From positions 3,038,001-3,102,000 of the forward strand of contig NZ_JAFBBR010000001.1 in the NCBI RefSeq assembly GCF_016907295.1: 64,000 nucleotides of DNA. Reading direction: 5' to 3'. Position 1 is the first letter of the stretch. Every line of letters starts with the position of its first letter. Position numbers and translations under genes: made by a program. The DNA comes from Microbacterium dextranolyticum (lineage in GTDB: Bacteria; Actinomycetota; Actinomycetes; Actinomycetales; Microbacteriaceae). A model generated the notes under the pieces. That model saw only the letters and a list, made by a program, of their open reading frames with translations, did no database searches and was not told the origin of the DNA. Positions 24,982 to 57,626 of this stretch are shown here, in pieces.

Positions 24982-25063
24982 CACGAACTCCGCAGAAAGT
25001 CACGAACTCCGCAGCCGATCGCCGCTTTGCCTGCGGAGTTCGTGCTCGCGTGCGGAGTTCGTG
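24982..25063. repeat. 82-bp four-arm palindromic element, copy 1 (GAACTCCGCA type)
   Basis: Four 14-bp arms are present: CACGAACTCCGCAG at 24982 and 25001, then inverted CTGCGGAGTTCGTG at 25031 and GTGCGGAGTTCGTG at 25050. Arm starts are 19 bp apart within each pair, and the central spacer is 16 bp. It lies in the gap between tag and the SDR gene and ends 2 bp from the SDR stop codon. Folded, it gives two 14-bp helices separated by a 5x5 internal loop. Confidence 0.9.
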
Positions 25064-25065
25064 CG

Positions 25066-26061
25066 TCACCGCCCGGGGCGCGACGCGCCGGCGCCGAGCG
25101 CGTCGCGCAGCGCGTCCTCGAGGTCGGGATGCCGGAACACGAAGCCCTGGTCTGCGAGAACCCCCGGCAGCACCCACCGGCTCTTCAGCACGAGTTCCGG
25201 CTCGGTGCGCAGCGCCCACATCGCGCTCTCCAGCATCCAGCGCCGCGCCGGCAGCCCGATCGGCACGCCGACGATGCGGCGCAGCGTCGCCATCAGCGTG
25301 GCGTCGTCGCTCGGGTGCGGGCTCGCGAGGTTCACGACGCCCGAGATGTCGTCGTGATCGCGGATGAAGCGCACGGCCGAGACGACGTCGTCGATGTGGA
25401 TCCAACTGAACCGCTGGCGTCCGCGCGTGTCGTGGTGCGGCGGGCAGCCGTCGCCGGTCGGCGCCTCGCCGATGCCCCGGTAGCGCGCGTGCGTCGGCCC
25501 CCAGCCGTCGAGGTGCGGCCCGCCGAGTCCGGTGCGCGCGAGCGTCGCCAGCAGCCGGGTGGCGGGACCCTCGCCGAGCACGATCGCCATCCGGAGGGCG
25601 ACGCGCCGGGTGCCGGGCATCTCGCCCGCGAAGAACGCTCCCTCCCACGCGCGGGCGACGTCGACCGAGAACCCGGTGCCGAGCTCTCCCGTCGCCTCGG
25701 TGTTCGCGCGGTCCATCGCGTGCCGGTAGATGGTGGCGGTCGAGGCGTTCATCCACACCCGCGGCGGGTGGCGGGCGCGCAGGACCGCATCATGCAGCGC
25801 GCGGGTGGTCTCGACCCGGGATCGCAGGATCTCATTCCGATTGCGATCGGTGTAGCGGCAGTTCACCGACCGGCCGGCGAGGTTGACGAGCACATCGGCG
25901 CCGTCCACCGCCTCGGCGATCTTCTCGGGGTGCCCCCACGAGACGGGGCCACCCCTCCCGATCGTGACGACCTCGTACCCGTCGGTGCGGAAGGCCCGGA
26001 CGAGTGCCGACCCCACGAATCCGCTCGCTCCGGCGATGACGACCCGACCTGCGGCATCCAT
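25066..26061 (-). CDS. TIGR01777-type NAD-dependent epimerase (SDR with DUF1731)
   Basis: This 331-residue extended short-chain dehydrogenase has an N-terminal Rossmann motif VIAGASGFVGSALV, an active-site-like region RVWMNASTATIYRH in place of a classical YxxxK, and a C-terminal DUF1731 (VGVPIGLPARRWML ... RWVLPGVLADQGF). Relatives (YfcH/SulA type) have no firmly known substrate. It starts divergently from the DUF4166 gene, 59 bp away. The two families frequently occur together or fused, so they probably act in one pathway. A perfect 14-bp palindrome lies between the two start codons. Confidence 0.9.
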   Translation of the reverse strand: MDAAGRVVIAGASGFVGSALVRAFRTDGYEVVTIGRGGPVSWGHPEKIAEAVDGADVLVNLAGRSVNCRYTDRNRNEILRSRVETTRALHDAVLRARHPPRVWMNASTATIYRHAMDRANTEATGELGTGFSVDVARAWEGAFFAGEMPGTRRVALRMAIVLGEGPATRLLATLARTGLGGPHLDGWGPTHARYRGIGEAPTGDGCPPHHDTRGRQRFSWIHIDDVVSAVRFIRDHDDISGVVNLASPHPSDDATLMATLRRIVGVPIGLPARRWMLESAMWALRTEPELVLKSRWVLPGVLADQGFVFRHPDLEDALRDALGAGASRPGR

Positions 26062-26086
26062 TTAGACCTCTCTTCGTTCAGCATTT

Positions 26087-26100
26087 CTGAACATGTTCAG
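26087..26100. promoter_or_regulatory. palindromic operator candidate CTGAACATGTTCAG
   Basis: This perfect 14-bp palindrome lies between the divergent SDR and DUF4166 genes. A further half-site GTTCAG sits at 26076-26081, giving a second inverted pair with CTGAAC at 26087. The arrangement suggests an operator for a dimeric repressor controlling both genes. No regulator gene is adjacent, so its owner is unknown. Confidence 0.55.
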
Positions 26101-26120
26101 ATTAATGTACCGTGAGAGAT

Positions 26121-26726
26121 ATGAACACCGTTCCGGCGACCTCGGTGTACGAGCGCACCCTCGGCGCGCGGCTCGACGAACTCGACGCCCGCCTGCGCTC
26201 TTACTTCAGGGCCCTGCCCCCGGGCGCCGTCGGCGTCGGGCGCGGCACGTTCGAGGCGGTCGGCCCGACGAGCCGCCTGCTGCGCCCGGTCTTCGCGGCG
26301 CTGGTCCGCCCGCGCATCCTCTTCGCCGAATCGGGTCGCGATGTGCCCTTCACCGTGCGCAACGCCCCGCAGCCGGACGGATCGCTGACCGCGTGGCGCG
26401 ATGTCCACTTTCCCGGCGGCACTCGGACGATGCAGGACCGCATGCGAGCCGAGGGCGCGGCGCTCATCGACCGGATCGGCCGCCGCGGCGAACTGGAAGT
26501 CACCCTTGACGTCGCGATCATCGACGGCGGGCTGCGCCTGGCATCCCGCCGTCTCGCCTGGTGGATCGGCGGCGTGCGCATCCCGTTGCCACCCCTTGCC
26601 CGCGTCACCGTCGACGAGCGGATGCGCGGCCCGCGCCAACACGTCGACGCCCGCGTCCACGTCGCACTCCTGGGCGAGGTCTTCCGCTACTCGGGCTCGT
26701 TCACCTACGAGGTCGCCGCGCGCTGA
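26121..26726 (+). CDS. DUF4166 domain protein
   Basis: This 201-residue soluble protein of the DUF4166 family has the conserved opening SVYERTLGARLDELDARLRSYF, a central beta-rich region and the C-terminal RVTVDERMRGPRQH. There is no signal peptide or membrane segment. The ATG at 26121 was preferred over the in-frame GTG at 26112 because the GTGAGAG just upstream can serve as its ribosome site. It is divergent from the SDR epimerase, with which the family is commonly associated. Function is unknown. Confidence 0.82.
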   Translation: MNTVPATSVYERTLGARLDELDARLRSYFRALPPGAVGVGRGTFEAVGPTSRLLRPVFAALVRPRILFAESGRDVPFTVRNAPQPDGSLTAWRDVHFPGGTRTMQDRMRAEGAALIDRIGRRGELEVTLDVAIIDGGLRLASRRLAWWIGGVRIPLPPLARVTVDERMRGPRQHVDARVHVALLGEVFRYSGSFTYEVAAR

Positions 26727-26772
26727 CGGCGCGCCGGGCCGCCGACGCGTCCGTCCGCCGCCCGGCTGTCCT

Positions 26773-26854
26773 CACGAACTCCGCAGAATGTGACGAACTC
26801 CGCAGCCGATCCGCCCCTTCCGTGCGGAGTTCACGCCCATCTGCGGAGTTCGTG
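26773..26854. repeat. 82-bp four-arm palindromic element, copy 2 (GAACTCCGCA type)
   Basis: Arms CACGAACTCCGCAG (26773) and GACGAACTCCGCAG (26792) are followed by inverted GTGCGGAGTTCACG (26822) and CTGCGGAGTTCGTG (26841). Spacing is identical to copy 1 (19, 30, 19). It lies between the convergent 3' ends of the DUF4166 and acyl-CoA oxidase genes, where it could also work as a bidirectional terminator. Confidence 0.9.
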
Positions 26855-26858
26855 CGCC

Positions 26859-26888
26859 GAAGGATGCCACGGCGAAGGATGCCACGGC
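26859..26888. repeat. two tandem copies of a 15-bp unit (GAAGGATGCCACGGC)
   Basis: The unit GAAGGATGCCACGGC is repeated exactly at 26859 and 26874, directly after palindromic element copy 2 and 20 bp before the acyl-CoA oxidase stop. Each unit contains the over-represented heptamer GGATGCC. It looks like a small replication-slippage duplication. Confidence 0.8.
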
Positions 26889-26908
26889 GCGGCACGCCGC
26901 CGCGCGGG

Positions 26909-29026
26909 TCACTTCTTCTTGAGCGACTTCTCCGAGGCGGGGGCCTCGCCCGACGCGGCGAGGTCGGCGTAGTACGCGCGAGCCTCGGCCTGACGCTCGT
27001 GCTCGGCGCCGGAGGCGATCGGAGCGCGCACGTGCTCGGGCGCGAAGCCGTAGGCGTCCACGAGGTCCTGCGCGTGGGGGCGCAGGCGCAGGCACAACCG
27101 GTCGATGTACTTCGAGACCGCGGCCGCGCGCTGCGACGACAGACGTCCGTTGATGAGGTACCAGGCCAGGTGCTTCTCGATGAGGTGCAGCCCGAACAGG
27201 TCGCGCAGCCACGTGAGCACCTGGGCGGTGCCCTCGTCGTCGACCCCGGCGATGCCGTCGCTGAACGCCTCCCACTGCAGCAGCTCGCCGTGGGCGCGCG
27301 CGGCCTCGATGAGCTCGGCCTGGTTCGCGTTGAAGAGCTCCGCCGCCTCGGCGGGCGACGCCTTGGCGGCGGGACGCAGACGCCCGGCGATGTCCGAGAT
27401 CATCTGCTCCACCCGGCCCGCGAGCAGCTCGTGCTGCTGCTCGGCTCGCAGTCCGAGCTCGACCGAGCGTGCCGTCGACCCGAGGTCGGCGACCGACTGT
27501 CCGAACTGGCGCAGCCCCGCACCGTGGAAGACCTTGCCGACCGTCTGCCGCGCGGCGAACGAGGCGAGCTTCGCGGCATCCGCCCCCCGGAACTGCTTCG
27601 CGAAGTCGGCGAGCAGGCGCTTGCCGACCAGCTGCAGCAGGATGTTGTTGTCGCCCTCGAACGTGACGTAGACGTCGAGGTCCTGATGCAGGCCGACGAG
27701 TCGATTCTCGGCCAGGAACCCGGATCCGCCGCACGCCTCGCGGGCCTCTTGGATGGTCTCGAGGGCGTTCCAGGTCGACAGCGGCTTGAGCGCCGCAGCG
27801 AGCGTCTCGAGGTTCTCGCGCTCGGCGGGCGTGTCCTGACGCCCCGAGAAGACGCCGTCGAAAGTGCGCAGCAGTTCGTCGTTGGAGAAGAACTGCGCGT
27901 AGTTCTGAGCCAGGCGCGGCAGCAGGCGCCGCTGATGCTTGCCGTAGTCGAGCAGCACGACCTCGTCGCTTCCGGCGCCCGAGTCGAACTGTCGGCGCTG
28001 GTTCGCGTACGTGACGGCGATGTGCAGGGCGAGGGCCGTCCCGGTGGTGGCGGCGCCGTCGAGCGAGACGCGTCCCTGGACCAGCGCCCCGAGCATCGTG
28101 AAGAAGCGACGGCCGGGGCTCGGGATCTCGGAGCTGTAGGTGCCGTCGGATGCCACGTCGCCGTACCGGTTCAGCAGGTTGAACCGCGGGATACGCACGT
28201 GGTCGAAGTGCAGCCGCCCGTTGTCGATGCCGTTGAGACCGCCCTTGACGCCGTCGTCCTCGCCGCCGACTCCCGGCAGGAAGGCGCCGTCGTCATCCCG
28301 CAGGGGCACGAAGAAGCAGTGCACGCCGTAGTTCACGCCGTTCGTGATGAGCTGGGCGAACACCGTCGCCGCGCGCCCGTGCAGCGCCGCATTGCCGAGA
28401 TAGTCCTTCCATGCGCCGCGGAACGGCGTGTGGATGACGAATTCCTCGGTCTCGGGATCGTAGGTCGCGGTCGTGCCGATCGCCGCGACGTCCGAGCCGT
28501 GCCCGGTCTCGGTCATCGCGAACGCGCCCGGCAGGTCGAGCTCGATGACGTCGCGCAGCCACGCGTCGTGGTGCTTCTTCGTGCCGAGCTGGTAGATGGC
28601 CGAGCCGAACAGCCCCCACTGGACGCCGGACTTGATCTGCAGGCTCGGGTCGGCCAGGACGAGCTCCATGAACCCGGCGAGGTTGGCGCCGTTGTCGTCG
28701 AGCCCGCCGTACTCGGTCGGGAACGCCCGGCGCGAGCCATTGTTCTCGACGAGCAGACGCAGCTGGCCCAGGACGCGCTCGCGATGCTCGGGCATCGGCT
28801 GGCCCTCGATGCGCCAGAATGCGGGGTCCTTGATCATCTCGCGCGCCTCGCGCCGCGTCTCGCGCCACGTGCCGAGCAGCAGATCGGTGACGGCGTCGAC
28901 GTCGATGCGCGCCTCGTGCGCCTCGACCGCGCTGTGCGGCGAGGTCGGCGCACCTCCGACCGGGGTGCGCGTGTTCGTCGCGGGCTTGCGAGGGTGGGCG
29001 TTCTGGCGGACGGCGGCGTCGGACAT
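26909..29026 (-). CDS. acyl-CoA oxidase/dehydrogenase family protein (ACOX type)
   Basis: This 705-residue flavoenzyme oxidises acyl-CoA to enoyl-CoA. Its length fits the long acyl-CoA oxidase branch. It shows an N-terminal helical domain, the mid-beta FAD loop (FAMTETGHGSDVAAIGT) and the C-terminal signature YVTFEGDNNILLQLVGKRLL with REACGGSGFLAENR. The start at 29026 (MSDAAVRQ) was chosen because upstream in-frame sequence looks non-coding and a purine tract precedes it. It is divergent from the APC permease gene. An inverted repeat containing GGGTTTCA lies about 130-160 bp upstream. Confidence 0.92.
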   Translation of the reverse strand: MSDAAVRQNAHPRKPATNTRTPVGGAPTSPHSAVEAHEARIDVDAVTDLLLGTWRETRREAREMIKDPAFWRIEGQPMPEHRERVLGQLRLLVENNGSRRAFPTEYGGLDDNGANLAGFMELVLADPSLQIKSGVQWGLFGSAIYQLGTKKHHDAWLRDVIELDLPGAFAMTETGHGSDVAAIGTTATYDPETEEFVIHTPFRGAWKDYLGNAALHGRAATVFAQLITNGVNYGVHCFFVPLRDDDGAFLPGVGGEDDGVKGGLNGIDNGRLHFDHVRIPRFNLLNRYGDVASDGTYSSEIPSPGRRFFTMLGALVQGRVSLDGAATTGTALALHIAVTYANQRRQFDSGAGSDEVVLLDYGKHQRRLLPRLAQNYAQFFSNDELLRTFDGVFSGRQDTPAERENLETLAAALKPLSTWNALETIQEAREACGGSGFLAENRLVGLHQDLDVYVTFEGDNNILLQLVGKRLLADFAKQFRGADAAKLASFAARQTVGKVFHGAGLRQFGQSVADLGSTARSVELGLRAEQQHELLAGRVEQMISDIAGRLRPAAKASPAEAAELFNANQAELIEAARAHGELLQWEAFSDGIAGVDDEGTAQVLTWLRDLFGLHLIEKHLAWYLINGRLSSQRAAAVSKYIDRLCLRLRPHAQDLVDAYGFAPEHVRAPIASGAEHERQAEARAYYADLAASGEAPASEKSLKKK

Positions 29027-29346
29027 CGGCGTGCCTCTCGATCGAAGCGGGCAGAAGTAATCACTGTCGACGCTAGGTCGCGCGGACGGCATGGAGAAAC
29101 CGATTGGATGCCCCGGACAACGCCGGTCGGCACCGTGCGGCGTCCGCGTTGTATGAAACCGAAACCCACACTTCATGAGACTGGGTTTCACTCGCCGCGC
29201 CGTCATGAACCCCGCAACGGCGCGCCGCGCGACACGACACTCCGACCCGCGCGGGCGCAATGCGCTCCCACGGACGCGGCGCCCACGATACTGAGCCGAT
29301 CCGGAGCCGCGCACGGTTCCCCTTCTGCCCGCATTCGGAGGCGGCC
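29027..29346. promoter_or_regulatory. divergent intergenic region with GAAACCC/GGGTTTC inverted repeat
   Basis: This 320-bp gap separates the acyl-CoA oxidase (minus) and APC permease (plus) genes. It is less GC-rich than its surroundings. It holds TGAAACC (29154), GAAACCC (29161-29167) and the inverted GGGTTTC (29183-29189), a likely operator core. The 12-mer ACTGGGTTTCAC (29180-29191) recurs at 61334-61345, upstream of the acyl-CoA dehydrogenase gene. A GGAGG ribosome site for the permease lies at 29338-29342. No gene is visible here. Confidence 0.45.
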
Positions 29347-30834
29347 ATGATCTCAGTGGGCACTCAGCTCGCCCGGCGCCAGCCCCTGGCCGCTCCCCTC
29401 GCCCCCCGGACCGGCAGCACCACGCTGGTGCGCAACCTCAGCACCTTCCAGCTGATGATGTTCGGCGTCGGGGCGACCGTCGGCACCGGCGTCTTCTTCG
29501 TGCTGAGCGAGTCGATCCCCGTCGCCGGGCCCGCCGTCATCCTCTCGTTCCTGCTCGCCGCGATCGCGGCCGGCCTCTCCGCCCTCTGCTACGCGGAACT
29601 CGCCTCGTCGATCCCCGTGAGCGGGTCGAGCTACTCGTACACGTACCACGCGCTCGGCGAAGGCGCCGCCGTCATCGTCGGCGGGTGCGTGCTGCTCGAG
29701 TACGGCGTCGCCGTCTCGGCTGTGGCGGTCGGATGGAGCGGATACTTCAACGATCTGCTGCACCATCTGTTCGGCTGGCAGCTGCCCGACACGCTCTCGC
29801 TCTCGTTCGTCCCCGGTGACGACGGCGCCGCCACCGGCGGCTTCGTGAACCTCCCCGCCGTCGTGCTGGTCCTGCTGTGCATGATCCTGCTCATCCGGGG
29901 TGCATCCGAGTCGGCGACCGTCAACGCCGTCATGGTGTGCATCAAGCTCGGCGTGCTGCTGCTGTTCATCGTCATCGGGTTCTCGGCGTTCAACGCCGAC
30001 CACTTCTCGAACTTCTTCGCCCAGGCATCCGGCATCGGCGGCGCCGCGGGCACGATCTTCTTCTCGTTCATCGGGTTGGATGCCGTGGCGACCGCGAGCG
30101 AAGAGGTGAAGAACCCGCAGAAGGCGATCCCGCGCGCGATCATCGGGGCGCTGCTCATCGTCACGGCCTTCTACGTGTTGGTGTGCCTCGCCGGTCTCGC
30201 CGCGCAGCCGGTCGAGTGGTTCGGCACGAAAGAGGCGGGCGAGGCCGGCCTCGCGAAGATCATGGAGCTCGCGACGGGCACCCCGATCTGGGCGACAGTG
30301 CTGTCGGCCGGCGCGGTGATCTCGGTTTTCTCGGTGACGCTCGTCACGCTGTACGGGCAGACCCGCATCCTCTTCTCGATCTCGCGGGACGGCATGGTGT
30401 CGAAGAGGTTCCTGCGCGTCAATCCCCGGTTCGGCACCCCCGTGTTCAACACCGTCGTCGTCTCGATCGTCGTCGCGCTCGTCGCGGGGTTCGTGCCGGC
30501 CGACTACCTGTGGGACAGCGTGTCGTTCGGCACGCTCGTCGCCTTCAGCGCGGTGGCGATCTCGCTGATCGTGCTGCGGCGGCGCAGCCCCGACCTGCCG
30601 CGCCCGTTCCGCGTGCCGCTGTTCCCCGTGATCCCGATCCTCACGGTGATCGTGTGCGTGTACGTGCTGACGAGCCTGCGCCCGATCACGTGGATCATCT
30701 GCGTGAGCTGGCTCGTGATCGTCTTCGCGTTCTACCTGGTCTACGGGCGGCGCCACGCGACGCTCGGCTCCGCCGACGCGAACGGAGCGGATACACCAGA
30801 CGCCGCGGCGATCCCGGTGGAGGACGAGCGATGA
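29347..30834 (+). CDS. APC-family amino acid permease
   Basis: This 495-residue integral membrane transporter has about twelve spans. It belongs to the cationic amino acid/YfnA-like branch of the APC superfamily. The first span carries the substrate-loop signature FGVGATVGTGVFFV, and later come FFSFIGLDAVATASEEVKNP and YGQTRILFSISRDGM. The ATG has a GGAGG site 5 nt upstream. It overlaps the next gene by 4 bp (ATGA), so permease and universal stress protein are translated together. Substrate specificity cannot be set from sequence. Confidence 0.94.
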   Translation: MISVGTQLARRQPLAAPLAPRTGSTTLVRNLSTFQLMMFGVGATVGTGVFFVLSESIPVAGPAVILSFLLAAIAAGLSALCYAELASSIPVSGSSYSYTYHALGEGAAVIVGGCVLLEYGVAVSAVAVGWSGYFNDLLHHLFGWQLPDTLSLSFVPGDDGAATGGFVNLPAVVLVLLCMILLIRGASESATVNAVMVCIKLGVLLLFIVIGFSAFNADHFSNFFAQASGIGGAAGTIFFSFIGLDAVATASEEVKNPQKAIPRAIIGALLIVTAFYVLVCLAGLAAQPVEWFGTKEAGEAGLAKIMELATGTPIWATVLSAGAVISVFSVTLVTLYGQTRILFSISRDGMVSKRFLRVNPRFGTPVFNTVVVSIVVALVAGFVPADYLWDSVSFGTLVAFSAVAISLIVLRRRSPDLPRPFRVPLFPVIPILTVIVCVYVLTSLRPITWIICVSWLVIVFAFYLVYGRRHATLGSADANGADTPDAAAIPVEDER

Positions 30835-31751
30835 GCTACCTCGTCGGCTACGGCCCCCGGAACGACGACCGCAGCGCGATCGAGCTCGCGCTGCAGCTCG
30901 CGCGATCCCGGCCCGAACCCGTCATCGCCCTGTCGGTCGTGCCGCGCGGCTGGGGCACACCCGCGGCCGGCGGCACCGACCGCGAGTACGAGCTGCGGGC
31001 CGCCGAGGAGGGGCGCCGCAGCACCGAGCTGGCCCGCGCCGACTTCGCCCGTCACCACGACACGGATGCCGTCATCGCCGCCGATGCGGCGATCCCCACC
31101 GAGGCGGCCTGGATCGCGGGGCGCTCCGTGCCCGCGACCCTCATGGAGCAGGCGGACGAGCACGGCGCGTGGGTCATCGTCGTCGGCTCGGCCGAAGAGG
31201 CCGAGCCCGGTCGCGTGCGCCTCAGTTCGAAGACCGACCGCCTCATGCACTCGTCGACGCTGCCGGTCGCGATCGCTCCCCGCTCGTACCGCACCTCGAG
31301 CGCCGTCACCCGCATCACCGTCGCCTTCCGCGACGACGACGCCGGATGGTCGCTGCTCGACCGCGTCGCCGACCTCAGCCGGACCGAGGGCGCGAGGCTC
31401 AGGATCGTGACGTTCGTGGTCGCACCGGCGCGCACCCCCGTGATCAACGACGTGCCCCACGCCGAGGCCCAGGTCACCGACGCCTGGACCCAGCAGGCGC
31501 GCCTCGCCCTCGCCGAGGCGCGGACGCACCTGGCCGCCCACGGCCCGGTCGACGACGTCGAGTTCCTCGTGACCATCGGCGCCGACTGGCCGTCCGCCGT
31601 GGCCTCGGTCGCCTGGAAGGACGGCGACATCCTCGTCGTCGGATCGTCGTCGACGCACCGACTGGCGCAGGTGTTCCTGGGCTCGAGCGCCGCGAAGATC
31701 GTCCGGAACGCCCCCGTCCCCGTCGTCGTGATCCCCGGCACGGCGAGCTGA
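30831..31751 (+). CDS. tandem-domain universal stress protein (UspA)
   Basis: This 306-residue protein has two Usp domains (about 1-150 and 155-304). The first ends with VVGSAEEAEPGRVRLSSKTDRLMHSS. The second has the ATP-binding-type ending VVGSSSTHRLAQVFLGSSAAKI followed by VPVVVIPG. It is translationally coupled to the APC permease, as is common for permease/Usp pairs, and may regulate transport. It is cytosolic. The gene runs convergently towards recQ with an 87-bp gap in which I see no strong terminator. Confidence 0.92.
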   Translation: MSYLVGYGPRNDDRSAIELALQLARSRPEPVIALSVVPRGWGTPAAGGTDREYELRAAEEGRRSTELARADFARHHDTDAVIAADAAIPTEAAWIAGRSVPATLMEQADEHGAWVIVVGSAEEAEPGRVRLSSKTDRLMHSSTLPVAIAPRSYRTSSAVTRITVAFRDDDAGWSLLDRVADLSRTEGARLRIVTFVVAPARTPVINDVPHAEAQVTDAWTQQARLALAEARTHLAAHGPVDDVEFLVTIGADWPSAVASVAWKDGDILVVGSSSTHRLAQVFLGSSAAKIVRNAPVPVVVIPGTAS

Positions 31752-31838
31752 GGGCCGCCCCGCTCGCGCGGCCGCATCACGGCGACCGATCACAGCGCCC
31801 AGTCACCGCGACCGAGCCGCCGCACGGAGAGACCGGGG

Positions 31839-33908: not shown

Positions 33909-33996
33909 CCGTCCAGGCTAACCGCGGCATCCGACAGGTGCGCCCGCGTTGCCCTCCCCGCGGCCTGCGGCCGGAGGCGGAACGGCGGAAAGACAG

Positions 33997-34026
33997 AGGG
34001 GGCGGATGCCGCAGCATCCGCCCCCT
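33997..34026 (-). terminator. intrinsic terminator hairpin after the LRR/LAXTG gene
   Basis: This is a perfect 13-bp stem (AGGGGGCGGATGC pairing with GCATCCGCCCCCT) with loop CGCA. It starts 20 bp beyond the stop codon at 34046. On the minus strand it is followed by CTGTCTTTCC, a modest T-rich stretch. It therefore ends the surface-protein transcript. Confidence 0.8.
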
Positions 34027-34045
34027 CACGAGGTCAGGCGACGGG

Positions 34046-49374: not shown

Positions 49375-49395
49375 GCCGCCAGCCTACGCATCGGG

Positions 49396-49417
49396 CCACT
49401 CGGGACCGGTCGAGTGG
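49396..49417. promoter_or_regulatory. small inverted repeat upstream of the histidine kinase
   Basis: CCACTCG and CGAGTGG (7 bp each, 8-bp loop) lie 22 bp upstream of the kinase start in the 130-bp gap after the YbdD-like gene. It may be an operator or a weak transcript hairpin. No LytTR-like repeat was found in this gap. Confidence 0.3.
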
Positions 49418-49504
49418 GGCACCAGCGCCGGCACCCGGCCCCGGCCCGGGCCCGGGAGCGCACGGTCAGGGCGTCGGGCGCCGTCTCGCAGCCGGGCGCA
49501 GGCC

Positions 49505-49876: not shown

Positions 49877-49879
49877 GGC

Positions 49880-52168
49880 TCAGTGCCCCCGGTGGGCGAG
49901 CTCGGCGCGCTCGTCGGCGAGGATCGGCTCCCACTGCTTCTCGAGCTCGCGCTCGGGCTTCGTGCCCAGGAACCCGGCCGGCGCGTAGCGACGCGAGGCG
50001 ACGGGTGCATCCTCGGTGTTCTCCCCGCCGCCGTTGCGGATCGCGCGGATGGTCACCGCGACCGCCGAGATCATCACGACGATGGCGAGCGCGACGAACA
50101 CGATCGACAGCGTGCCCTGCACGGCGGTGTTGCGGATGACCGCGTCGACCACCTCGGGCTTGCCCAGCTTTCCGTCGCCCGCGGCCTGCGCCGCCCGGTA
50201 CTTGGCGTTGTTGGCCCAGTAGCCGATCGAGGGGACGGGCGAGAAGATCTTGTACATCGACGCCGTGATCGTGACGACCGCCGTGAAGGCGAGCGGCACG
50301 GCGACGATCCAGAGCCACCGCAGGTAGTTGCGTCCGCGCTTGGCGACGATCGCCAGCACGACGGCGAGCGCGATCGCGGCGAGCAGCTGGTTCGCGATGC
50401 CGAACAGCGGGAAGAACGTGTTGATGCCGCCGAGCGGGTCGGTGACGCCGAGGATCAGGATGTACCCCCAGCCGGCGACCATGATCGCCGTGCAGATCCA
50501 GACGCCCGGGCGCCAGGTCACGTCGCGGAAGCGCGGGAACCAGTGCCCGAGCGAGTCCTGCAGCATGAAGCGGGCGACGCGCGTGCCGGCATCCACCGCC
50601 GTCAGGATGAACAGCGCCTCGAACATGATCGCGAAGTGGTACCAGAACGCCATCATGGCCTGACCGCCCAGTGCCTGGTGCATGATGTGCGCGAGGCCGA
50701 GCGCGAGGGTCGGCGCGCCACCCGTGCGCGAGACGATCGTCCCCTCCCCGACGTTCGCCGCGGTCTCGGTGAGGATGTCGGGGGTCAGTGGCGCCCCGGT
50801 GAGCCCCAGCGAATTGACGAACGCGACGGCCCCCTCGACCGTGCCCCCGGTAAGGGCCGCGGGCGAGTTCATCGCGAAGTAGATGCCCTGGTCGATCGAG
50901 ATCGCGGCGACGAGCGCCATGATCGCGACGAACGACTCCATGAGCATGCCGCCGTAGCCGATGAAGCGGGTCTGCCGCTCCTTCTCGACGAGCTTCGGGG
51001 TCGTGCCCGAGGCGATCAGCGCGTGGAAGCCGGAGAGTGCGCCGCAGGCGATCGTGACGAACAGGAACGGGAAGAGCGGCCCCGAGAACACCGGGCCGAG
51101 GCCGTTCTGACCGAACACCGTGATCGCCGGAACCGAGATCTCCGGGCGCACGACGATGATCGCGCCGGCGAGCATGACGATGACGCCGATCTTCATGAAG
51201 GTCGACAGGTAGTCGCGCGGGGCCAGCAGCAGCCAGACCGGCAGGATCGCGGCGACGAAGCCGTAGATGATGATGCCCCACGCGATCGTCGTCTTGTCGA
51301 GGTGGAAGAGCGCGTAGCCCCACTCGGTCGAGGCGACCCAGCCGCCGCCGATGATGGCGGCCATGAGCAGCACGAAGCCGATGATCGAGACCTCGGTGAC
51401 CTTGCCGGGGCGCAGGTACCGCAGGTACACGCCCATGAACAGCGCGATCGGGATCGTCATCGACACGCTGAAGACGCCCCACGGGCTCTCGCCGAGGGCG
51501 TTGACCACGACGAGCGCGAGGATCGCGACGATGATGAGCATGATGAGCAGGGATGCCACGATCGCCGCGGTCCCGCCGATGCGGCCGAGCTCCTGGCGGG
51601 CCATCTGGCCGATCGTGCGACCGCCGCGGCGCATCGAGAAGAAGAGCACCGTGTAGTCCTGCACGGCGCCGGCGAGGACGACGCCGACGATGATCCAGAT
51701 GGTGCCGGGAAGGAAGCCCATCTGGGCGGCGAGCACGGGCCCGACGAGGGGGCCTGCGCCCGCGATGGCGGCGAAGTGGTGCCCGTAGAGTACGCGGCGG
51801 TCGGTGGGGACGTAGTCCTTGCCGTCGGACTTGACCTCGGCCGGGGTCGCCCGGCGGTCGTCGGGGCGCAGCAGGTGCTTCTCGATCACCTTGGAGTAGA
51901 AGCGATAGCCGATGAGATACGTGCAGACCGCGGCGAAGACGAACCAGATGGCGTTGACGGTCTCGCCGCGGACGACGGCCAGCATGACCCACGCGAGCCC
52001 GCCGAGGAGGGCGATGGCGATCCACAGGACGACCTTGGGCCACGTCCAGCGCGAGGTCGCGGCCTCTTGAGTGGGGGTGATGGCCGTCGGCGGAAGGCTC
52101 GGATCGGGGACGATCACGGGATCGTCGTCGACCACGGCTGCTCTGCGGCGGGATGACGGTGTGGACAT
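49880..52168 (-). CDS. cstA: CstA-family pyruvate/carbon starvation transporter
   Basis: This integral membrane carrier has 762 residues and around sixteen spans. The family-typical segments are HHFAAIAGAGPLVGPVLAAQMG near the N-terminus, FFPLFGIANQLLAA and LGHWFPRF. CstA/BtsT proteins import pyruvate with protons, and older literature linked them to peptides. It is first of a minus-strand run that continues with the YbdD-like protein, kinase, regulator, DUF485 protein and symporter. The ATG has a GAGGAG ribosome site about 6 nt upstream. Its leader contains a 13-bp-arm palindrome and a LytTR-type direct repeat. Confidence 0.95.
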   Translation of the reverse strand: MSTPSSRRRAAVVDDDPVIVPDPSLPPTAITPTQEAATSRWTWPKVVLWIAIALLGGLAWVMLAVVRGETVNAIWFVFAAVCTYLIGYRFYSKVIEKHLLRPDDRRATPAEVKSDGKDYVPTDRRVLYGHHFAAIAGAGPLVGPVLAAQMGFLPGTIWIIVGVVLAGAVQDYTVLFFSMRRGGRTIGQMARQELGRIGGTAAIVASLLIMLIIVAILALVVVNALGESPWGVFSVSMTIPIALFMGVYLRYLRPGKVTEVSIIGFVLLMAAIIGGGWVASTEWGYALFHLDKTTIAWGIIIYGFVAAILPVWLLLAPRDYLSTFMKIGVIVMLAGAIIVVRPEISVPAITVFGQNGLGPVFSGPLFPFLFVTIACGALSGFHALIASGTTPKLVEKERQTRFIGYGGMLMESFVAIMALVAAISIDQGIYFAMNSPAALTGGTVEGAVAFVNSLGLTGAPLTPDILTETAANVGEGTIVSRTGGAPTLALGLAHIMHQALGGQAMMAFWYHFAIMFEALFILTAVDAGTRVARFMLQDSLGHWFPRFRDVTWRPGVWICTAIMVAGWGYILILGVTDPLGGINTFFPLFGIANQLLAAIALAVVLAIVAKRGRNYLRWLWIVAVPLAFTAVVTITASMYKIFSPVPSIGYWANNAKYRAAQAAGDGKLGKPEVVDAVIRNTAVQGTLSIVFVALAIVVMISAVAVTIRAIRNGGGENTEDAPVASRRYAPAGFLGTKPERELEKQWEPILADERAELAHRGH

Positions 52169-52201
52169 GGTGGCTCCTCACGAGACGCGGCGTTGCGCGC
52201 C

Positions 52202-52242
52202 CCCAGGTTAGGGAGCGCGCGGTGCGCGGTCCCTAACCTGGG
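52202..52242. repeat. 13-bp-arm palindrome in the cstA leader
   Basis: CCCAGGTTAGGGA (52202-52214) and TCCCTAACCTGGG (52230-52242) form perfect arms around a GC-rich 15-bp spacer, 34-74 bp upstream of the cstA ATG. As RNA it would make a stable hairpin in the 5' leader. Each arm also resembles half of an iron box, but the halves are too far apart for one DtxR site. Confidence 0.7.
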
Positions 52243-52254
52243 CATCCGCACGCG

Positions 52255-52284
52255 ACGAACGGCACCGATCGCGCGACGAACGGC
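52255..52284 (-). promoter_or_regulatory. LytTR-type direct-repeat binding site upstream of cstA
   Basis: On the minus strand GCCGTTCGT occurs twice (52284-52276 and 52263-52255) with exactly 12 bp between. The surrounding 13 bp (CGCGACGAACGGC on plus) are identical. The known LytTR consensus is two direct copies of [TA][AC][CA]GTTN[AG][TG] 12-13 bp apart, and each copy here fits 8 of 9 positions. It lies 87-116 bp upstream of the cstA start and near the genes for a LytTR regulator. Confidence 0.75.
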
Positions 52285-52419
52285 GCCGCGCGGGACGGAG
52301 CGCAGCGCGGCGCCGGAGGCCGTGGCGCGTCACGCGGGATGCCTGATCGCGCGTGATGCCTGGCGGAGCACCGGCGGCCGCGCCTACGGTGGAACACGTC
52401 CCCATCGGAAGGAGAGGCC

Positions 52420-52788
52420 ATGTCCGAGAGCATCGAGGTCGCGCGCAACGAGGCCGCCGGCCGTTACGAGATCAGCGTCGACGGCGCGGTGGCCGGATTC
52501 ACGGCGTTCTTGCCCGATGCCGAGGGCCGGCTCGTGTTCCCCCACACCGTGATCGACCCCGCCTACGGCGGACGGGGCCTCGGCACGAGACTCATCGCCG
52601 ACGCGATGGCGGATGTCGCCGGCCGCGGCGAGACGGTCGTGCCGGAGTGCTCGTTCGTCGTGCGGTATCTGCAGGGGCACGACGTGCCGGGCCTCTCGGT
52701 GCACTGGCGCGAGCGCGACGTCGAGACCGCGCAGCACGCCCCGGCCGACGAGCCGGGCCCCGGCGATGAGGGCGTCGGGCGCGGATGA
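52420..52788 (+). CDS. small GNAT-family N-acetyltransferase (NATD1/YjdJ type)
   Basis: This 122-residue acyltransferase of the short NATD1-like group has the acetyl-CoA loop IDPAYGGRGLGTRLI and the C-terminal CSFVVRYLQGH. The ATG has a strong AAGGAGAGG site 6 nt upstream. Its stop overlaps the pirin start by 4 bp. The substrate is unknown for this group. The last 25 residues are acidic and probably unstructured. Confidence 0.9.
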   Translation: MSESIEVARNEAAGRYEISVDGAVAGFTAFLPDAEGRLVFPHTVIDPAYGGRGLGTRLIADAMADVAGRGETVVPECSFVVRYLQGHDVPGLSVHWRERDVETAQHAPADEPGPGDEGVGRG

Positions 52789-53804
52789 CACGACTCGACA
52801 CCGGCCCGGAGGAGACCGAGGCGCCGCCGCGGTGCGACGGGCCGCGTGCGCTGGTGCTCGAGGCTCGCGAGGTGCCCCTCGGCGGCGTGCGGGCAATGTC
52901 GGTGCACCGGAGCCTGCCGCAGCGCGCGCTGCCGATGGTGGGTGCGTGGTGCTTCCTCGACCGGTTCGGGCCGCAGACCGCACGGATGCGGGTCGAGCCG
53001 CATCCTCACATCGGCCTGCAGACGGTGACGTGGCCCCTCGTCGGCGAGGTGCGCCACCGCGACGTGCTCGGCAGCGACGTCGTCGTGCGCCGCGGCGTGC
53101 TGAACCTCATGACGAGCGGCGCGGGCATCGCGCACTCCGAGTACTCCGTCGGCGACGACGCCGTGCCGCTCGATGCCCTGCAGCTGTGGGTCGCCCTTCC
53201 CGAATCGCGCCGCCACGGCGGTCCCGGTTTCGAACGGCACGAGGATCTGCCCGTCGTGACGCTCGGCGGGGGCGCGACGGCGACCGTCGTCGTCGGGGAC
53301 TTCGCCGGGGCATCCTCACCCGCGACGATGCACACCCCCATCACCGGCGTCGAGATCGCACTGCCCGCCGGGTGCCGGGTGACCCTTCCACTGCACCCGA
53401 CGTGGGAGTACGCGCTCGTCGGCGTGTTCGGCGCCGCGACGGTGATGACCGGGTCGACTGGCGACGGGGGCGGGGCGGATGCCGCGGCATCCGTCGATCT
53501 CGCCCCGCAGCGCCTGCTCTACCTCGGCATCGAGCGCACGGAGATCGCGCTGCACGCGACCGAGGAGGCGACCGTGTTCCTCCTCGGCGGGGAGCCCTTC
53601 GAGGCCGACATCGTCATGTGGTGGAACTTCGTCGCCCGCTCGCACGATGAGATCGCGGCGGCACGGGATGCCTGGGAGGCCGAGGGTCGCGGCGAGGCAT
53701 CCGGCCCGCCCCGCTTCGGGCACGTCACGGGCCATGGCGACGAGCGGATCCCCGCGCCCCCGCTGCCGTCGGTGCGCCTGACGCCGCGCCGTCGGCGGGA
53801 CTGA
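52785..53804 (+). CDS. pirin-family bicupin protein
   Basis: This 339-residue protein has two cupin domains. The N-terminal pirin domain shows PHPHIGLQTVTW, VLNLMTSGAGIAHSE and the metal ligands of the family (two His, one His, one Glu). Pirins bind iron and act as quercetinase-like enzymes or redox sensors. It is translated in coupling with the upstream GNAT gene (ATGA). Its 3' end is part of a 23-bp tandem repeat. Confidence 0.92.
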   Translation: MTRLDTGPEETEAPPRCDGPRALVLEAREVPLGGVRAMSVHRSLPQRALPMVGAWCFLDRFGPQTARMRVEPHPHIGLQTVTWPLVGEVRHRDVLGSDVVVRRGVLNLMTSGAGIAHSEYSVGDDAVPLDALQLWVALPESRRHGGPGFERHEDLPVVTLGGGATATVVVGDFAGASSPATMHTPITGVEIALPAGCRVTLPLHPTWEYALVGVFGAATVMTGSTGDGGGADAAASVDLAPQRLLYLGIERTEIALHATEEATVFLLGGEPFEADIVMWWNFVARSHDEIAAARDAWEAEGRGEASGPPRFGHVTGHGDERIPAPPLPSVRLTPRRRRD

Positions 53805-53860
53805 GCCGGGCCGGGTCTGGCGGGAATGAGCAGGGCCGTCGGCGGGAATGAGCCGGGCCA
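53791..53860 (+). repeat. three tandem 23-24-bp units at the pirin 3' end
   Basis: Three units of the form G-T-C-G/T-G-GCGGGA-A/C-TGAGC-GGGCC begin at 53791, 53815 and 53838. The first unit contains the pirin stop codon, and each later unit carries a copy of the same TGA. This looks like recent slippage duplication of the gene end. Confidence 0.75.
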
Positions 53861-53876
53861 GGCAAGTCCGGACGGG

Positions 53877-53896
53877 GCGGGCCGCCGCCGGCCCGC
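53877..53896. terminator. GC hairpin downstream of the pirin gene
   Basis: GCGGGCCG and CGGCCCGC form an 8-bp stem with loop CCGC, 73 bp after the pirin stop. There is no T-run, so terminator activity is uncertain. Confidence 0.4.
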
Positions 53897-53974
53897 GGTC
53901 ACCGGGTCGCGGGCCACGGCGCCGCATCCCGGGCATCCGGATCGAGGGCCTGCGCGCGCCGGTACGCTGGAGGG

Positions 53975-54529
53975 GTGCCCCGCAATCCGATCCTGACGAC
54001 CAGGACGCTGCTCGTCTGCGCCGCGATCGGCGTCGCGACCGGCATCGTCGGAGGGATCGCCGGCGTCGCCACGCCGGTCGTCCTGGCCACCGCGCCGTTC
54101 CTCTACGGCCTCGTGCTCGGGGCGCACGTGCTGCCCGGCATCATCGCGCAGGAAGTGCTGCGGCTGCCGCTGGTCGCGATCCTGACGCACGTGCTCGCCG
54201 CGCTCGTCTCGAGCGCCTTCAACCCGGCGTGGACGATGCGCTTCATCGGCACCGCCCTGCTGTTCGGCGCCATTCAAGAGGGCGTCGCGGCGCTCACCCG
54301 CTACCGCGCCTGGGGCGCGTGGCGGTTCTTCATCTCCGCCGTCGCCATCGGCGCCCTCGTGGCGGTCGTCGTCTTCTTCGTCGCGCACCTCGGCACCCTC
54401 GCCCCGTGGGCCCAGATCGCCTACCTCGCCCTCTCGGTCGCGGGCCCCGTCGCCTGGACCGCCCTCGGCCTCGGCGTGGGAACCTCGCTCCGACGGGCCG
54501 GCGTCGCCCGCCACGCCACCCGCCGCTGA
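53975..54529 (+). CDS. ECF transporter S component, YkoE-like (copy 1)
   Basis: This 184-residue membrane protein has five or six spans and resembles the YkoE-type substrate-binding component of ECF importers. It opens with LLVCAAIGVATGIVGG and ends TALGLGVGTSLRRAGVARHA. A paralogue with the same opening (LLTCAAIGVAGGIV) and ending (TALGILVCDRLRAAGVARLA) lies at 59459-59989, bracketing the ATPase, EcfT and SIP genes. The GTG at 53975 is the only sensible start. A TACGCT hexamer 6 nt ahead suggests a leaderless mRNA. YkoE of Bacillus serves thiamine precursors. Here no thiamine riboswitch is seen and the locus context points to iron. Confidence 0.85.
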   Translation: MPRNPILTTRTLLVCAAIGVATGIVGGIAGVATPVVLATAPFLYGLVLGAHVLPGIIAQEVLRLPLVAILTHVLAALVSSAFNPAWTMRFIGTALLFGAIQEGVAALTRYRAWGAWRFFISAVAIGALVAVVVFFVAHLGTLAPWAQIAYLALSVAGPVAWTALGLGVGTSLRRAGVARHATRR

Positions 54530-54619
54530 CCCGCGGCGGCGCTCCGAGCGCGGTCTGCGCGTGGCATCCGCCCCTCGGCGTGGGCGTGGGCGTGGGCGTC
54601 GCCGCGGCATCCGGCGCCA

Positions 54620-54703
54620 CACGTACTCCGCAGATCCACGCGTACTCCGCACCCGCACGGGCGAATGGGTGCGGAGCACGTGACATTCTGCGGAGTACGT
54701 GGA
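54620..54703. repeat. palindromic element A (GTACTCCGCAG type)
   Basis: Arms ACGTACTCCGCAG (54621) and GCGTACTCCGCAC (54640) face GTGCGGAGCACG (54669) and CTGCGGAGTACGT (54688). The 19-bp steps and the 16-bp central spacer equal those of the GAACTCCGCA type. The loop reads CCGCACGGGCGAATGG. Confidence 0.9.
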
Positions 54704-54816
54704 TGCCCCCGCACCCGCCGTAAGCAGCACGCGGCCTCGCGGGACCCGTACGTCGGCGCCCCGCCGTCACCTCGCCCTGCACGCTGACGCCCCGCCGTCA
54801 CCTCACCCTCGCCCCA

Positions 54817-54880
54817 CAGGTACTCCGCAGATCCACGCGTACTCCGCACCTGCACGGGCGAATGAGTGCGGAGTACGTGG
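54817..54880. repeat. palindromic element B (three arms)
   Basis: CAGGTACTCCGCAG (54817) and CGCGTACTCCGCAC (54836) are followed by one inverted arm GTGCGGAGTACGTGG (54866). The fourth arm is missing. The loop CTGCACGGGCGAATGA is nearly the same as in element A. Confidence 0.85.
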
Positions 54881-54990
54881 ATGCCCGGGGCACACCCCCG
54901 AGGCCGCGCGGGCCTTCAGGTACCCCTATTCCACGCGCCCGGCACCCGGTGATCGCCGACGCCACCGCCGTCGCCGCGGCATCCACCCCC

Positions 54991-55074
54991 GCACGCACTC
55001 CGCAGATCCATGCGTGCTCCGCACCCGAGCGGGCGAATGGATGCGGAGTACGTGACATCCTGCGGAGTACGTGG
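54991..55074. repeat. palindromic element C (four arms)
   Basis: Arms GCACGCACTCCGCAG (about 54990) and TGCGTGCTCCGCAC face ATGCGGAGTACGTG and CTGCGGAGTACGTG. The loop CCGAGCGGGCGAATGG resembles A and B. A compensating-looking change pairs GCACT with altered outer arms only imperfectly. Flank sequence downstream duplicates that of element A. Confidence 0.85.
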
Positions 55075-55214
55075 ATGCCCCCCGCACCCGCCGTAAGCAG
55101 CACGCGGCCTCGCGGCGCCCAGAACGCCCTCGTCGCATTCGCACGCCGCGCGCCGCCCCGTCGCGCTCTCGCCCGCACGCCATCGCGTCACCCTCGGAGC
55201 CTCCCTCGCCGCGC

Positions 55215-55296
55215 CCGTACTCCGCAGATCCACGCGTACTCCGCACTCCAAACCCCGATCCGATGCGGAGTACGCGACATCCTGCGGAGTACGTGG
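55215..55296. repeat. palindromic element D (four arms)
   Basis: CCGTACTCCGCAG and CGCGTACTCCGCAC face GATGCGGAGTACGCG and CTGCGGAGTACGTGG, with the same 19-bp steps. The loop (TCCAAACCCCGATCCG) differs from A-C. It ends 79 bp before the iron box of the ECF operon. Confidence 0.88.
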
Positions 55297-55374
55297 ATGC
55301 CCGAGCCCCGGCCCCAGGCAGCACCCGCGACCTCCCCGCGCCCCAGCGCAGCACCACCGAGGTTGGTCGAGAAG

Positions 55375-55393
55375 TAAGGGCAGGCTAACCTAG
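55375..55393. promoter_or_regulatory. DtxR/IdeR-type iron box before the ECF ATPase
   Basis: TAAGGGCAGGCTAACCTAG matches the iron-box consensus TTAGGTTAGGCTAACCTAA at 15 of 19 positions, with a complete right half (GGCTAACCTA). It ends 34 bp before the GTG start. Iron repression of the ATPase, EcfT, SIP and second S component is therefore likely. Confidence 0.75.
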
Positions 55394-55427
55394 AGAGGTC
55401 CGCCCTCTTCGACCGCTGGGATGCCCC

Positions 55428-57626
55428 GTGACCTCTGCCGTCTCCGACACGGCGTCCGCGGCCCCCGTGGGAGCGCCGTCGACGCCCCTCCTGCGCGTGC
55501 GCGGGCTGGGCGTGCGGTACGAGGGCAGTGAGGTGGCGACACCGGCATCCGTCGATCTCGTCGTCGCGCCGGGGGAAGTCGTCCTCGTGCTCGGACCGAG
55601 CGGGGCCGGCAAGTCGACGCTCGCGCTCGCGCTGAACGGGCTGATCCCGCATGCCGTCCCCGCGACGCTCACCGGCGGCGTCGAGGTTGCGGGGCTGTCC
55701 ACCGCGACGACCCCGGTCTCGGTGCTGAGCACGCAGGTCGGCATGGTGTTCCAGGATCCCGACGCGCAGCTCGTGACGGGCACCTTGCTCGACGAGGTCG
55801 CCTTCGGGCCCGAGAATCTGCGCCTGCCCGTCGACGAGGTGCTCGCCCGCGCCGAGGATGCCCTGCGACGGGTCGGCCTGTGGGAGCGACGGCACGAAAA
55901 CCCCGATCGGCTGAGCGGCGGCGGCCGGCAGCGACTCGCGATCGCCTGCGCCCTCGCGATGGGATCGCCGCTGCTCGTCCTGGACGAGCCGACCGCGAAC
56001 CTCGATCCGCAGGGCATCGAGGAGGTCTACGACGCACTCGGCGATCTCGTCGCCGCCGGCGATCGCGCGATCGTCCTCGTCGAGCACAATCTCGATGCCG
56101 CGACGCGCATCACCGACCGCGTCGTCGTACTCGACCGCACCGGACGCACGGTCGCGGACGGTCCGATCGACGAGGTGCTGCGCGGCCGCGCCGAAGAGCT
56201 GCACGAGCTCGGCGTGTGGCTGCCGACCTCGACGATGGCTGCCCTGCGCCTACGCGCGGCCGGCTGGTCGCTCGACCCGCTGCCGCTCGACCCGGACGAA
56301 CTGCGGACCGCGCTCGAGGCGGCTGCGGACCCGCGGCTCGCCCGCGACGTGGGCCAAGCGGCCGGCGCCGGAGGCATCGGGGCGGCGGATGCTCCGGCCC
56401 CACCCGCGCGTGACGACCAGACCGCACGGGATGCCGCGGCAGCGCCGGCCTCGCAGGGCGCGACCGCACGATCCGCGGATGCCCCCGCGTCGGCTACCGC
56501 ACTCACCGATTCGAAGGCGCGAGCTGCCGCCGCCGCACCCGGGCCGGCCGCCCCCTTCTCCGCCCCCGGACTGGCCGCAGGATCAGCGACTCACCCGACG
56601 CTCGGGCAGGATGCCACGCCCGCACCGCTCATCCGAGTCCGCGATCTGCGCACGCGGCGCGGCCGCACCGAGATCCTGCACGGCATCGACCTCGACGTCG
56701 CGGCGGGCGAGTTCGTCGCCATCGTCGGCGCCAACGGGGCGGGAAAGACGACCCTGCTGCAGTCGATCGCCGGCGTCGTGCGCGTCCCGCGCCGGCAGGT
56801 CCGACTCGGTGACGTCGACGTCGCGACGGCCGACCGCCGCACGCTGTCGCGGCGGATCGGCTTCGTGTTCCAGAACCCGGAGCATCAGTTCATCGCCCCC
56901 ACGGTCTTCGACGAGCTCGCCCACGGGCTGCGCCAGCAGCGCCTGTCGGAGCCCGAGGTCCGAGACCGCGTCGACGACGTCCTACGCCGGTTCGGACTCG
57001 AGGACAAGGCGCAGACGCATCCGTTCCTGCTCTCGGGCGGGCAGAAACGCCGGCTCTCGGTCGGGACGGCGCTCGTCGCGGGCGCCCCTGTGCTCGCACT
57101 CGACGAGCCGACGTTCGGTCAGGATCGCGCCCGCGCGGACGAGCTGATGAGCCTGCTGCGCGAGCTCGGCGACAGCGGCACCACGATCCTCGTCGTGACC
57201 CACGACATGCAGCTGGTCACCGAGCACGCCGATCGCACGATCATCGTCGGCGAGGGACGCGTGCTCGCCGACGGTGCGACCCCGGACGTCTTCGCCGACG
57301 ACGAGCTGCTGCGCGCGTCGGGGCTGCGCCAGCCGCCGCTGCGACGGGCGCTGGCGGGCCTGCAGCGGCATCCGGCACTCTCGCGCGTCACGCGCCTCGC
57401 GGACCTCGACGAACTCCGCACCCGTGACGCACTCACCGACCGCGTCGAACTCCGCAGGATTCCACGAACTCCGCACGATTCCGGCGATTCCCTGCGGAGT
57501 ACCCGCGATGCTGCGGAGTTCGTGGCGGATGCCGGAGCGAACGCCGCGCAGGATGCCCAGGCGCACGACGCGCAGGATGCCGGGGCGCAGACCACGGCGC
57601 ACACCCGCGCGGAGGGCGCCCCGTGA
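55428..57626 (+). CDS. fused EcfA-EcfA' energy-coupling ATPase
   Basis: This 732-residue fusion has two ABC ATPase halves. The first has Walker A GPSGAGKST (56-64), Q-loop FQDPDAQL, signature LSGGGRQR (162-169, a variant of LSGGQ) and Walker B LLVLDEPTANLD. An Ala/Pro linker (about 290-400) follows. The second has GANGAGKTT (about 435), QNPEHQFI, signature LSGGQKRR and LALDEPTFGQD. Residues 661-699 in the C-terminal tail are encoded by a five-arm palindromic repeat. The GTG start is weakly supported by upstream GGGA, and an ATG at 55421 is out of frame. EcfT starts in its stop codon. It powers substrate import with EcfT and the S components. Confidence 0.93.
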   Translation: MTSAVSDTASAAPVGAPSTPLLRVRGLGVRYEGSEVATPASVDLVVAPGEVVLVLGPSGAGKSTLALALNGLIPHAVPATLTGGVEVAGLSTATTPVSVLSTQVGMVFQDPDAQLVTGTLLDEVAFGPENLRLPVDEVLARAEDALRRVGLWERRHENPDRLSGGGRQRLAIACALAMGSPLLVLDEPTANLDPQGIEEVYDALGDLVAAGDRAIVLVEHNLDAATRITDRVVVLDRTGRTVADGPIDEVLRGRAEELHELGVWLPTSTMAALRLRAAGWSLDPLPLDPDELRTALEAAADPRLARDVGQAAGAGGIGAADAPAPPARDDQTARDAAAAPASQGATARSADAPASATALTDSKARAAAAAPGPAAPFSAPGLAAGSATHPTLGQDATPAPLIRVRDLRTRRGRTEILHGIDLDVAAGEFVAIVGANGAGKTTLLQSIAGVVRVPRRQVRLGDVDVATADRRTLSRRIGFVFQNPEHQFIAPTVFDELAHGLRQQRLSEPEVRDRVDDVLRRFGLEDKAQTHPFLLSGGQKRRLSVGTALVAGAPVLALDEPTFGQDRARADELMSLLRELGDSGTTILVVTHDMQLVTEHADRTIIVGEGRVLADGATPDVFADDELLRASGLRQPPLRRALAGLQRHPALSRVTRLADLDELRTRDALTDRVELRRIPRTPHDSGDSLRSTRDAAEFVADAGANAAQDAQAHDAQDAGAQTTAHTRAEGAP
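57408..57524. repeat. palindromic element inside the ECF ATPase gene (five arms)
   Basis: Forward arms GACGAACTCCGCAC (57408), GTCGAACTCCGCAG (57444) and CACGAACTCCGCAC (57463) are followed by inverted CTGCGGAGTACCCG (57492) and CTGCGGAGTTCGTG (57511). The last four keep the 19-bp steps, with a 15-bp centre. The frame stays open and yields an Arg/Asp-rich tail. Confidence 0.88.

Follow-up and report, generated by a model that had tools for sequence, protein, structure and literature searches.

What are the palindromic repeats that recur along a 64,000-nt stretch of the chromosome of the soil bacterium Microbacterium dextranolyticum (GCF_016907295.1, contig NZ_JAFBBR010000001.1, positions 3,038,001 to 3,102,000; hereafter the window, in which position 1 is the first letter), and which gene, if any, do they serve? 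We found that these repeats, 82-bp elements with four arms, lie at further positions on the complete 3,181,200-bp chromosome, and that copies outside the window flank the gene for a nuclease with an AbiEi-like and a Vsr-like half. We conclude that the elements probably belong to a system of two parts, of which they are the dispersed one and this nuclease the other. Throughout, G### denotes Microbacterium genomes (G000 being the window's genome), L### individual loci, and P0001 the 281-amino-acid nuclease of G000.

The full element consists of a 13-bp arm, a 6-bp linker, a second direct arm, an 18-nt centre, and two inverted arms separated by a linker, with arm starts at 0, 19, 50 and 69. The conserved 13-bp arm reads CACG[A/T]ACTCCGCA, and we refer to the family of the window copies, by its arm motif, as the CTCCGCA family. 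The first-pass annotation of this DNA had described 14-bp arms around a 15-16-bp centre; its 19-bp step within arm pairs is constant in all 24 G000 copies, and its arm and centre lengths are corrected here to 13 bp and 18 nt. The centre is 1 base shorter in two of the 24 (57444 in the window and 2034916 on the chromosome), and a few copies beyond the window (674087, 678332 and 2556494) have a single degraded arm. Arm-like sequences are in excess: the window holds 90 matches with at most 3 mismatches, compared with 48 +/- 7.6 in shuffled sequence (0/100 shuffles reached 90), and the 11-mer arm core CGNACTCCGCA occurs 76 times genome-wide, compared with 11 for the reversed pattern. A covariance-model search of the genome, which the first-pass annotation had suggested, did reveal further copies, placing elements at 24 G000 positions; 23 of these 24 had built the model, so the search is not independent of it. 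No Rfam family reached its gathering threshold in the window.

Across the genus, 81 of 295 genomes hold covariance-model matches at E <= 1e-3, counted on both strands among the best 15 scored candidates per genome; those with at least five matches are termed element-rich (n = 32). We read 40 regions from nine match-rich genomes, 15 of G000, and the window, all selected for holding matches. Some element sites are common to several species: the 3' side of guaB, for example, holds a copy in eight of the ten genomes read, and also in G018, whose guaB lies outside those regions.

The P0001 gene itself lies 3' of guaB (G000:C1:673186-674028), flanked by element copies and neighboured by guaB and a major facilitator superfamily (MFS) transporter gene. 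The protein belongs to the DUF559 / REase_MTES_1575 families, and its predicted structure combines an N-terminal AbiEi-like half with a Vsr/I-Bth0305I-like nuclease half. This is not the partner that the first-pass annotation had in mind, a Y1 transposase of the RAYT type (the tyrosine transposases associated with repetitive extragenic palindromes, REPs) next to a copy: the bracketed gene encodes the nuclease. No gene for an AbiEii (DUF1814) toxin adjoins P0001 at this G000 locus. Homologues occur in 284 of the 295 genomes and occupy a few common loci, with guaB as the shared upstream gene at 28 loci and a second shared upstream gene at 26; searches of plasmid and phage collections returned nothing for P0001, and PADLOC gave a weak homing-endonuclease match (E 1e-3). 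A G000 paralogue of P0001 lies at 2539674-2540480. At least five model matches occur in 19 of the 29 genomes that have a close relative of P0001 (E <= 1e-85) and in 13 of the 266 others, a comparison whose cut-off was set post hoc, which phylogeny confounds, and in which the covariance model covers one arm family.

At the loci of the 30 best homologues, palindromes of the same geometry appear with other arms as well (CTCCGCA, TTCGCA, CTTCGGT and others). We applied a palindrome finder, blind to arm sequence and allowing spacings of 14-24, to 74 nuclease loci: these 30, three further G000 paralogues, L157, and 40 more that were picked from a listing before their sequence was read (L158 was excluded). 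The 40 further loci gave 31 matches in 22 loci, every one with a spacing of 19. Twenty control loci from the same genomes gave two matches, with spacings of 15 and 16 and none at 19 (22/40 vs 0/20 loci with 19-bp palindromes, p = 9e-6), and 259 kb of first-order Markov sequence gave no match. The guaB loci are unclean as a control, two of the three matches there being G018 nuclease flanks; in G010, G011, G013 and G019 the nuclease adjoins guaB with no palindrome match there. Over all 74 loci, 42 have a 19-bp-spaced match within 450 nt of the nuclease gene, and all 62 such matches are that close; in 17 loci, 16 of them without a tandem array, palindromes stand on both sides of the nuclease. The upstream palindrome ends 84-122 nt before the start codon in 24 of 30 cases (with start codons of our choosing), and the downstream palindrome starts -26 to +42 nt from the stop in 27 of 32. 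G188 and G048 have a single element where G293 has element-nuclease-element, which would be compatible with recombination between flanking copies. At L178 (G237:C1:1624011-1624096), counted among the 62 matches, at least five self-complementary arms stand in direct tandem at 19-bp steps.

The arms track the nuclease. Arm similarity rises with nuclease identity (rho 0.45; 0/2000 permutations), and the arms differ from one nuclease clade to the next. A second nuclease locus in G000 has CAGAATCGGA arms, with a likeness of 0.72 to those of G188 and 0.00 to those of the first G000 locus; this within-genome comparison is cleaner than the cross-genome correlation. Moreover, the arm patterns of nuclease flanks recur genome-wide in 13 of 13 genomes searched. 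Counting half-elements, copies adjoining the nuclease included, we found 12 in G000, 24 in G188, 31 in G081 and 10 in G190, with 0 for the reversed pattern; a search of nine more genomes, in which two mismatches were allowed and one pattern covered two families, gave 35 in G179, 59 in G227, 29 in G237, 8 in G281, 28 in G005, 19 in G042, 29 in G107, 16 in G187 and 17 in G069, with 0-5 for reversed patterns. Since such arms recur across G000, two families of element, and two nucleases bracketed by palindromes, are present in the window's genome.

We propose, with about an even chance of being right, that this is a second, unrelated REP-type system: the AbiEi-Vsr nuclease would recognise the four-arm palindrome and cut the mismatched hairpin, repair would place copies of the element at further gene ends and rewrite the genome's copies to the enzyme's arm, and the partners would have diverged in step across Microbacterium, a single genome harbouring several independent pairs. 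The nuclease gene would keep to a small number of set chromosomal positions and, in many species, stands between palindromes cognate to it. Each 13-bp arm may be bound by one AbiEi-like half, a one-arm-per-domain arrangement drawn by analogy with AbiEi antitoxins, which bind paired inverted repeats. Arranged as two direct and two inverted sites, the arms could bring several nuclease domains together on an extruded cruciform or hairpin in which mismatches are maintained in the linkers. If the enzyme nicked or cut there, repair off another copy would carry the element to new sites, and the same repair would homogenise the arms within a genome, as is thought for RAYTs and REPs. Copies would survive chiefly at gene 3' ends, possibly as insulating hairpins with an effect on transcription.

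In the one literature collection searched, we found no description of such a nuclease-palindrome pairing. To our knowledge, known REP-repeat pairings all rest on HUH transposases. If the proposal is true, a non-homologous enzyme is paired with the same repeat type, and such partnerships arose more than once; it would also hint at what a widespread, uncharacterised protein family does, and make many natural enzyme-site pairs available for specificity tests.

The first-pass annotation had likened the elements to REPs and bacterial interspersed mosaic elements (BIMEs), and in architecture and logic this is borne out, with a dispersed hairpin, a bracketed partner and arms that follow the partner; the system is REP-like by working principle, with an enzyme class unrelated to RAYTs. 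Passages of PMC2817692 and PMC8266576 describe, for RAYT (TnpAREP)/REP systems, or REPtrons, palindromes that lie outside genes, are imperfect and have an unpaired middle, copies flanking the partner gene, and repeat and enzyme sequences that track each other; in those of PMC2817692, RAYTs are flanked by two REPs with which they apparently coevolve, and REP copy number exceeds 100 per genome. The present system differs from these in its partner, a Vsr-like nuclease with an AbiEi-like half rather than a Y1 HUH (IS200/IS605-type) transposase, in its 82-bp, four-arm, 19-bp-spaced design without a GTAG tag, and in its tens of copies (24 in G000) rather than hundreds. With AbiEi operators (type IV toxin-antitoxin) it shares the predicted AbiEi-like N-terminal fold and inverted repeats with four sites, as at the Rv2827c operator, where, according to passages of PMC7319586, an AbiEi-family antitoxin binds four 23-bp repeats; unlike them, it has a nuclease fusion, no neighbouring AbiEii toxin gene in G000, and sites that flank the gene both upstream and downstream and also occur at the ends of many other genes. 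The modelled catalytic fold is Vsr-like, as in the EDxHD homing endonuclease I-Bth0305I, but P0001 is a free-standing chromosomal gene bracketed by palindromes and unmatched in the phage collection searched. Like the elements studied here, miniature inverted-repeat transposable elements (MITEs) and Rickettsia palindromic elements are short, dispersed and palindromic; unlike them, the present elements show no target-site duplication, rarely enter frames, and bracket a nuclease. The likeness to Rickettsia elements drawn in the first-pass annotation is a poor fit, with one of the 24 G000 copies in a predicted reading frame.

Several observations weigh against a nuclease-element partnership. At finder thresholds, 32 of the 74 nuclease loci have no palindrome, and 29 family-wide loci (28 from other genera) gave one match, which does not adjoin the gene. 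Among the six G000 homologues, L157 and L158 are without a palindrome, and L155 and L156 carry long hairpins with other motifs, possibly further element families (L155 has a spacing of 18 and was not counted). No P0001 relative at E <= 1e-85 occurs in 13 of the 32 element-rich genomes; the element-rich G165 has none even at 1e-10, and G188, G048 and G170 have many copies but no gene closely related to that of the guaB-linked nuclease. Where loci are shared, the nuclease is inherited along with the species, and common descent therefore accounts for part of the arm-protein correlation. We know of no case in which a Vsr-like nuclease moves DNA in this way.

The tests of mobility add to these objections. 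In 75 copies, direct flank matches were at chance level, giving no sign of target-site duplication; GTAG/CTAC within 20 bp on either side occurred in 0/75, and CGTC or GACG near the element in 7/75 copies per side. We compared 80 loci around the acyl-CoA dehydrogenase gene, of which 79 were readable (L290 was left out), together with the G000 copy. A CTCCGCA-type element lies 3' of this gene in six (G000, L248, L250, L253, L259 and L301, of which at least L248, L253 and L259 belong to genomes already read), and four-arm matches with other arms lie there in L263, L265, L292, L295 and L312. In twelve element-free 3' regions inspected we found no base-exact empty site; these regions hold other intergenic sequence or another hairpin. 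Of the refuting outcomes that the first-pass annotation had named, most did not come about: further copies exist, the inner arms covary, and several sites are common to more than one species. The clean empty-site alignments that it had looked to were, however, not obtained. With neither a target-site duplication nor a clean empty site, mobility itself is something that we infer. The two copies flanking the nuclease at L187 share their loop (0.94, in the same orientation), a likeness lacking in the majority of the 17 pairs compared, and this common loop suggests copying.

Could the same observations be explained without a nuclease that spreads its own sites? The palindromes may be regulatory sites of the AbiEi-like half, used for autoregulation and a regulon, and hairpins at transcript ends, their likeness arising from selection on the motif. 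In its favour, passages of PMC7319586 report that AbiEi-family antitoxins autoregulate via paired inverted repeats; in the loci examined here, moreover, an upstream palindrome typically ends some 100 nt ahead of the start codon, and arm primary sequence is conserved more than pairing. We nevertheless consider this explanation unlikely: dispersed copies avoid divergent promoters, the downstream palindrome is left without explanation, and the loops of the L187 flanks are alike in a way that suggests copying, although most of the 17 pairs differ.

It is highly improbable, in our judgement, that a REP/MITE-like element is moved by an unseen transposase encoded elsewhere, with the nuclease a passenger or an often-targeted defence gene. 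Dispersal, the patchy distribution (81/295 genomes), and the 13 element-rich genomes that lack a close nuclease relative would suit such an element; against it, arms change with the nuclease and differ between its clades, there is neither a GTAG tag nor a target-site duplication, and a scan of 16 of the window's 41 predicted proteins found no transposase domain. We likewise give little credence to a defence or addiction system in which the nuclease cuts or marks palindromes and chromosomal copies are tolerated or protected. The AbiEi-like fold of the structure model and the weak PADLOC match point that way, as does a DUF559-containing Vsr-like protein tied to DNA damage in Caulobacter in passages of PMC12907096, but P0001 is unmatched in the plasmid and phage collections, its G000 neighbours are guaB and the MFS transporter gene, and its homologues are confined to few common loci.

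If pairing within the element is selected, as the first-pass annotation had supposed from matching changes in facing arms, it should exceed that of reshuffled halves. In 69 distinct copies from nine genomes (without duplicates and restricted to 18-nt centres), this held for the inner arms (0.867 vs 0.833, 0/1000) and failed for the outer arms (0.817 vs 0.813, 269/1000 reshuffles); six loop-stem positions also showed no excess (690/1000 reshuffles). The supposition is thus borne out in part, with kinship among copies uncontrolled in these reshuffles and in those of the linkers. Linkers of the CTCCGCA family paired below expectation (0.432 vs 0.526; 0/2000 shuffles as low): their consensuses are complementary, yet pairing within copies is lower than between copies. 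One reading is that the middle must stay unpaired, as it must in E. coli REPs, where, according to passages of PMC8266576, restoring a regular stem abolishes or severely reduces activity; the other is that long palindromes are lost when perfect. Taking all families together, the 62 nuclease-flanking matches pair above composition between their arms (0.45 vs 0.28), so the kept linker mismatch holds only for the CTCCGCA family. Restricted to the 23 copies of G000, covariation is weak (24/500 shuffles reach the score), and linker and loop pairs show none. Arm primary sequence is more conserved than arm pairing. RNA structure was rejected as the main constraint: outer arms, linkers and loop pair no better than expected, although inner arms do.

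The copies lie mostly at gene 3' ends. Of 78 copies from ten genomes, placed with a purpose-made simple gene caller, 32 are convergent, 43 co-directional and 1 divergent, and 2 lie in predicted genes, compared with 89 convergent, 392 co-directional and 86 divergent among 567 gene pairs of the same sequence; divergent promoters are thus avoided (1/76 intergenic copies vs 86/567, p = 2e-4). The 78 include a G013 copy (L093) that fell under the score cut for the 69-copy pairing and 75-copy flank sets. The element folds with a mean minimum free energy of -49.5 kcal/mol (z -7.3). An ordinary intrinsic terminator was rejected: the hairpin is strong, but in each 12-nt flank of the 24 copies no more than 4 bases are T, and they form no run.

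Within the window, the seven copies listed in the first-pass annotation all exist, with small shifts in two starts (54991 to 54992 and 55215 to 55214). None is assigned a strand. The four-arm element at 24982..25063 lies 3' of a TIGR01777-family oxidoreductase gene (25066-26061, -), and that at 26773..26854 lies between a convergent DUF4166 gene (26121-26726, +) and an acyl-CoA dehydrogenase-like gene (26909-29026, -), both named from Pfam, with an NCBIfam match below its cut-offs. A cluster of four begins with a copy with T-class arms (54620..54701) and continues with a truncated, three-arm element (54817..54879) and four-arm elements at 54992..55073 and 55214..55295, the last 132 nt ahead of a double ATP-binding cassette (double-ABC) ATPase gene. 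Within this cluster (54620-55295), the 42 bp after two of the four copies are 95% identical, a likeness that suggests local duplication. The seventh copy (57444..57524), with a 17-nt centre, lies within the C-terminal tail of the double-ABC protein's predicted frame (55428-57626, +), and an extra leading arm, GACGAACTCCGCA (57408..57420, +), precedes it by 36 bp. The frame of this energy-coupling factor (ECF)-type ATPase is uninterrupted across element and extra arm (57408-57524).

Other repeats occupy comparable sites. Several family-free genomes have an ordinary GC-rich hairpin at the guaB 3' end instead. Another hairpin type, with GAGATCTGC-like arms, stands at a gene 3' end in L097 (G008), at 3084, 3' of guaB, and a hairpin type with GAGATCTGC-like arms lies 3' of the acyl-CoA dehydrogenase gene in L250 (M. 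paulum). In L105 (G031), guaB is followed by four direct repeats of ~20 bp with GAGTGAG-like cores.

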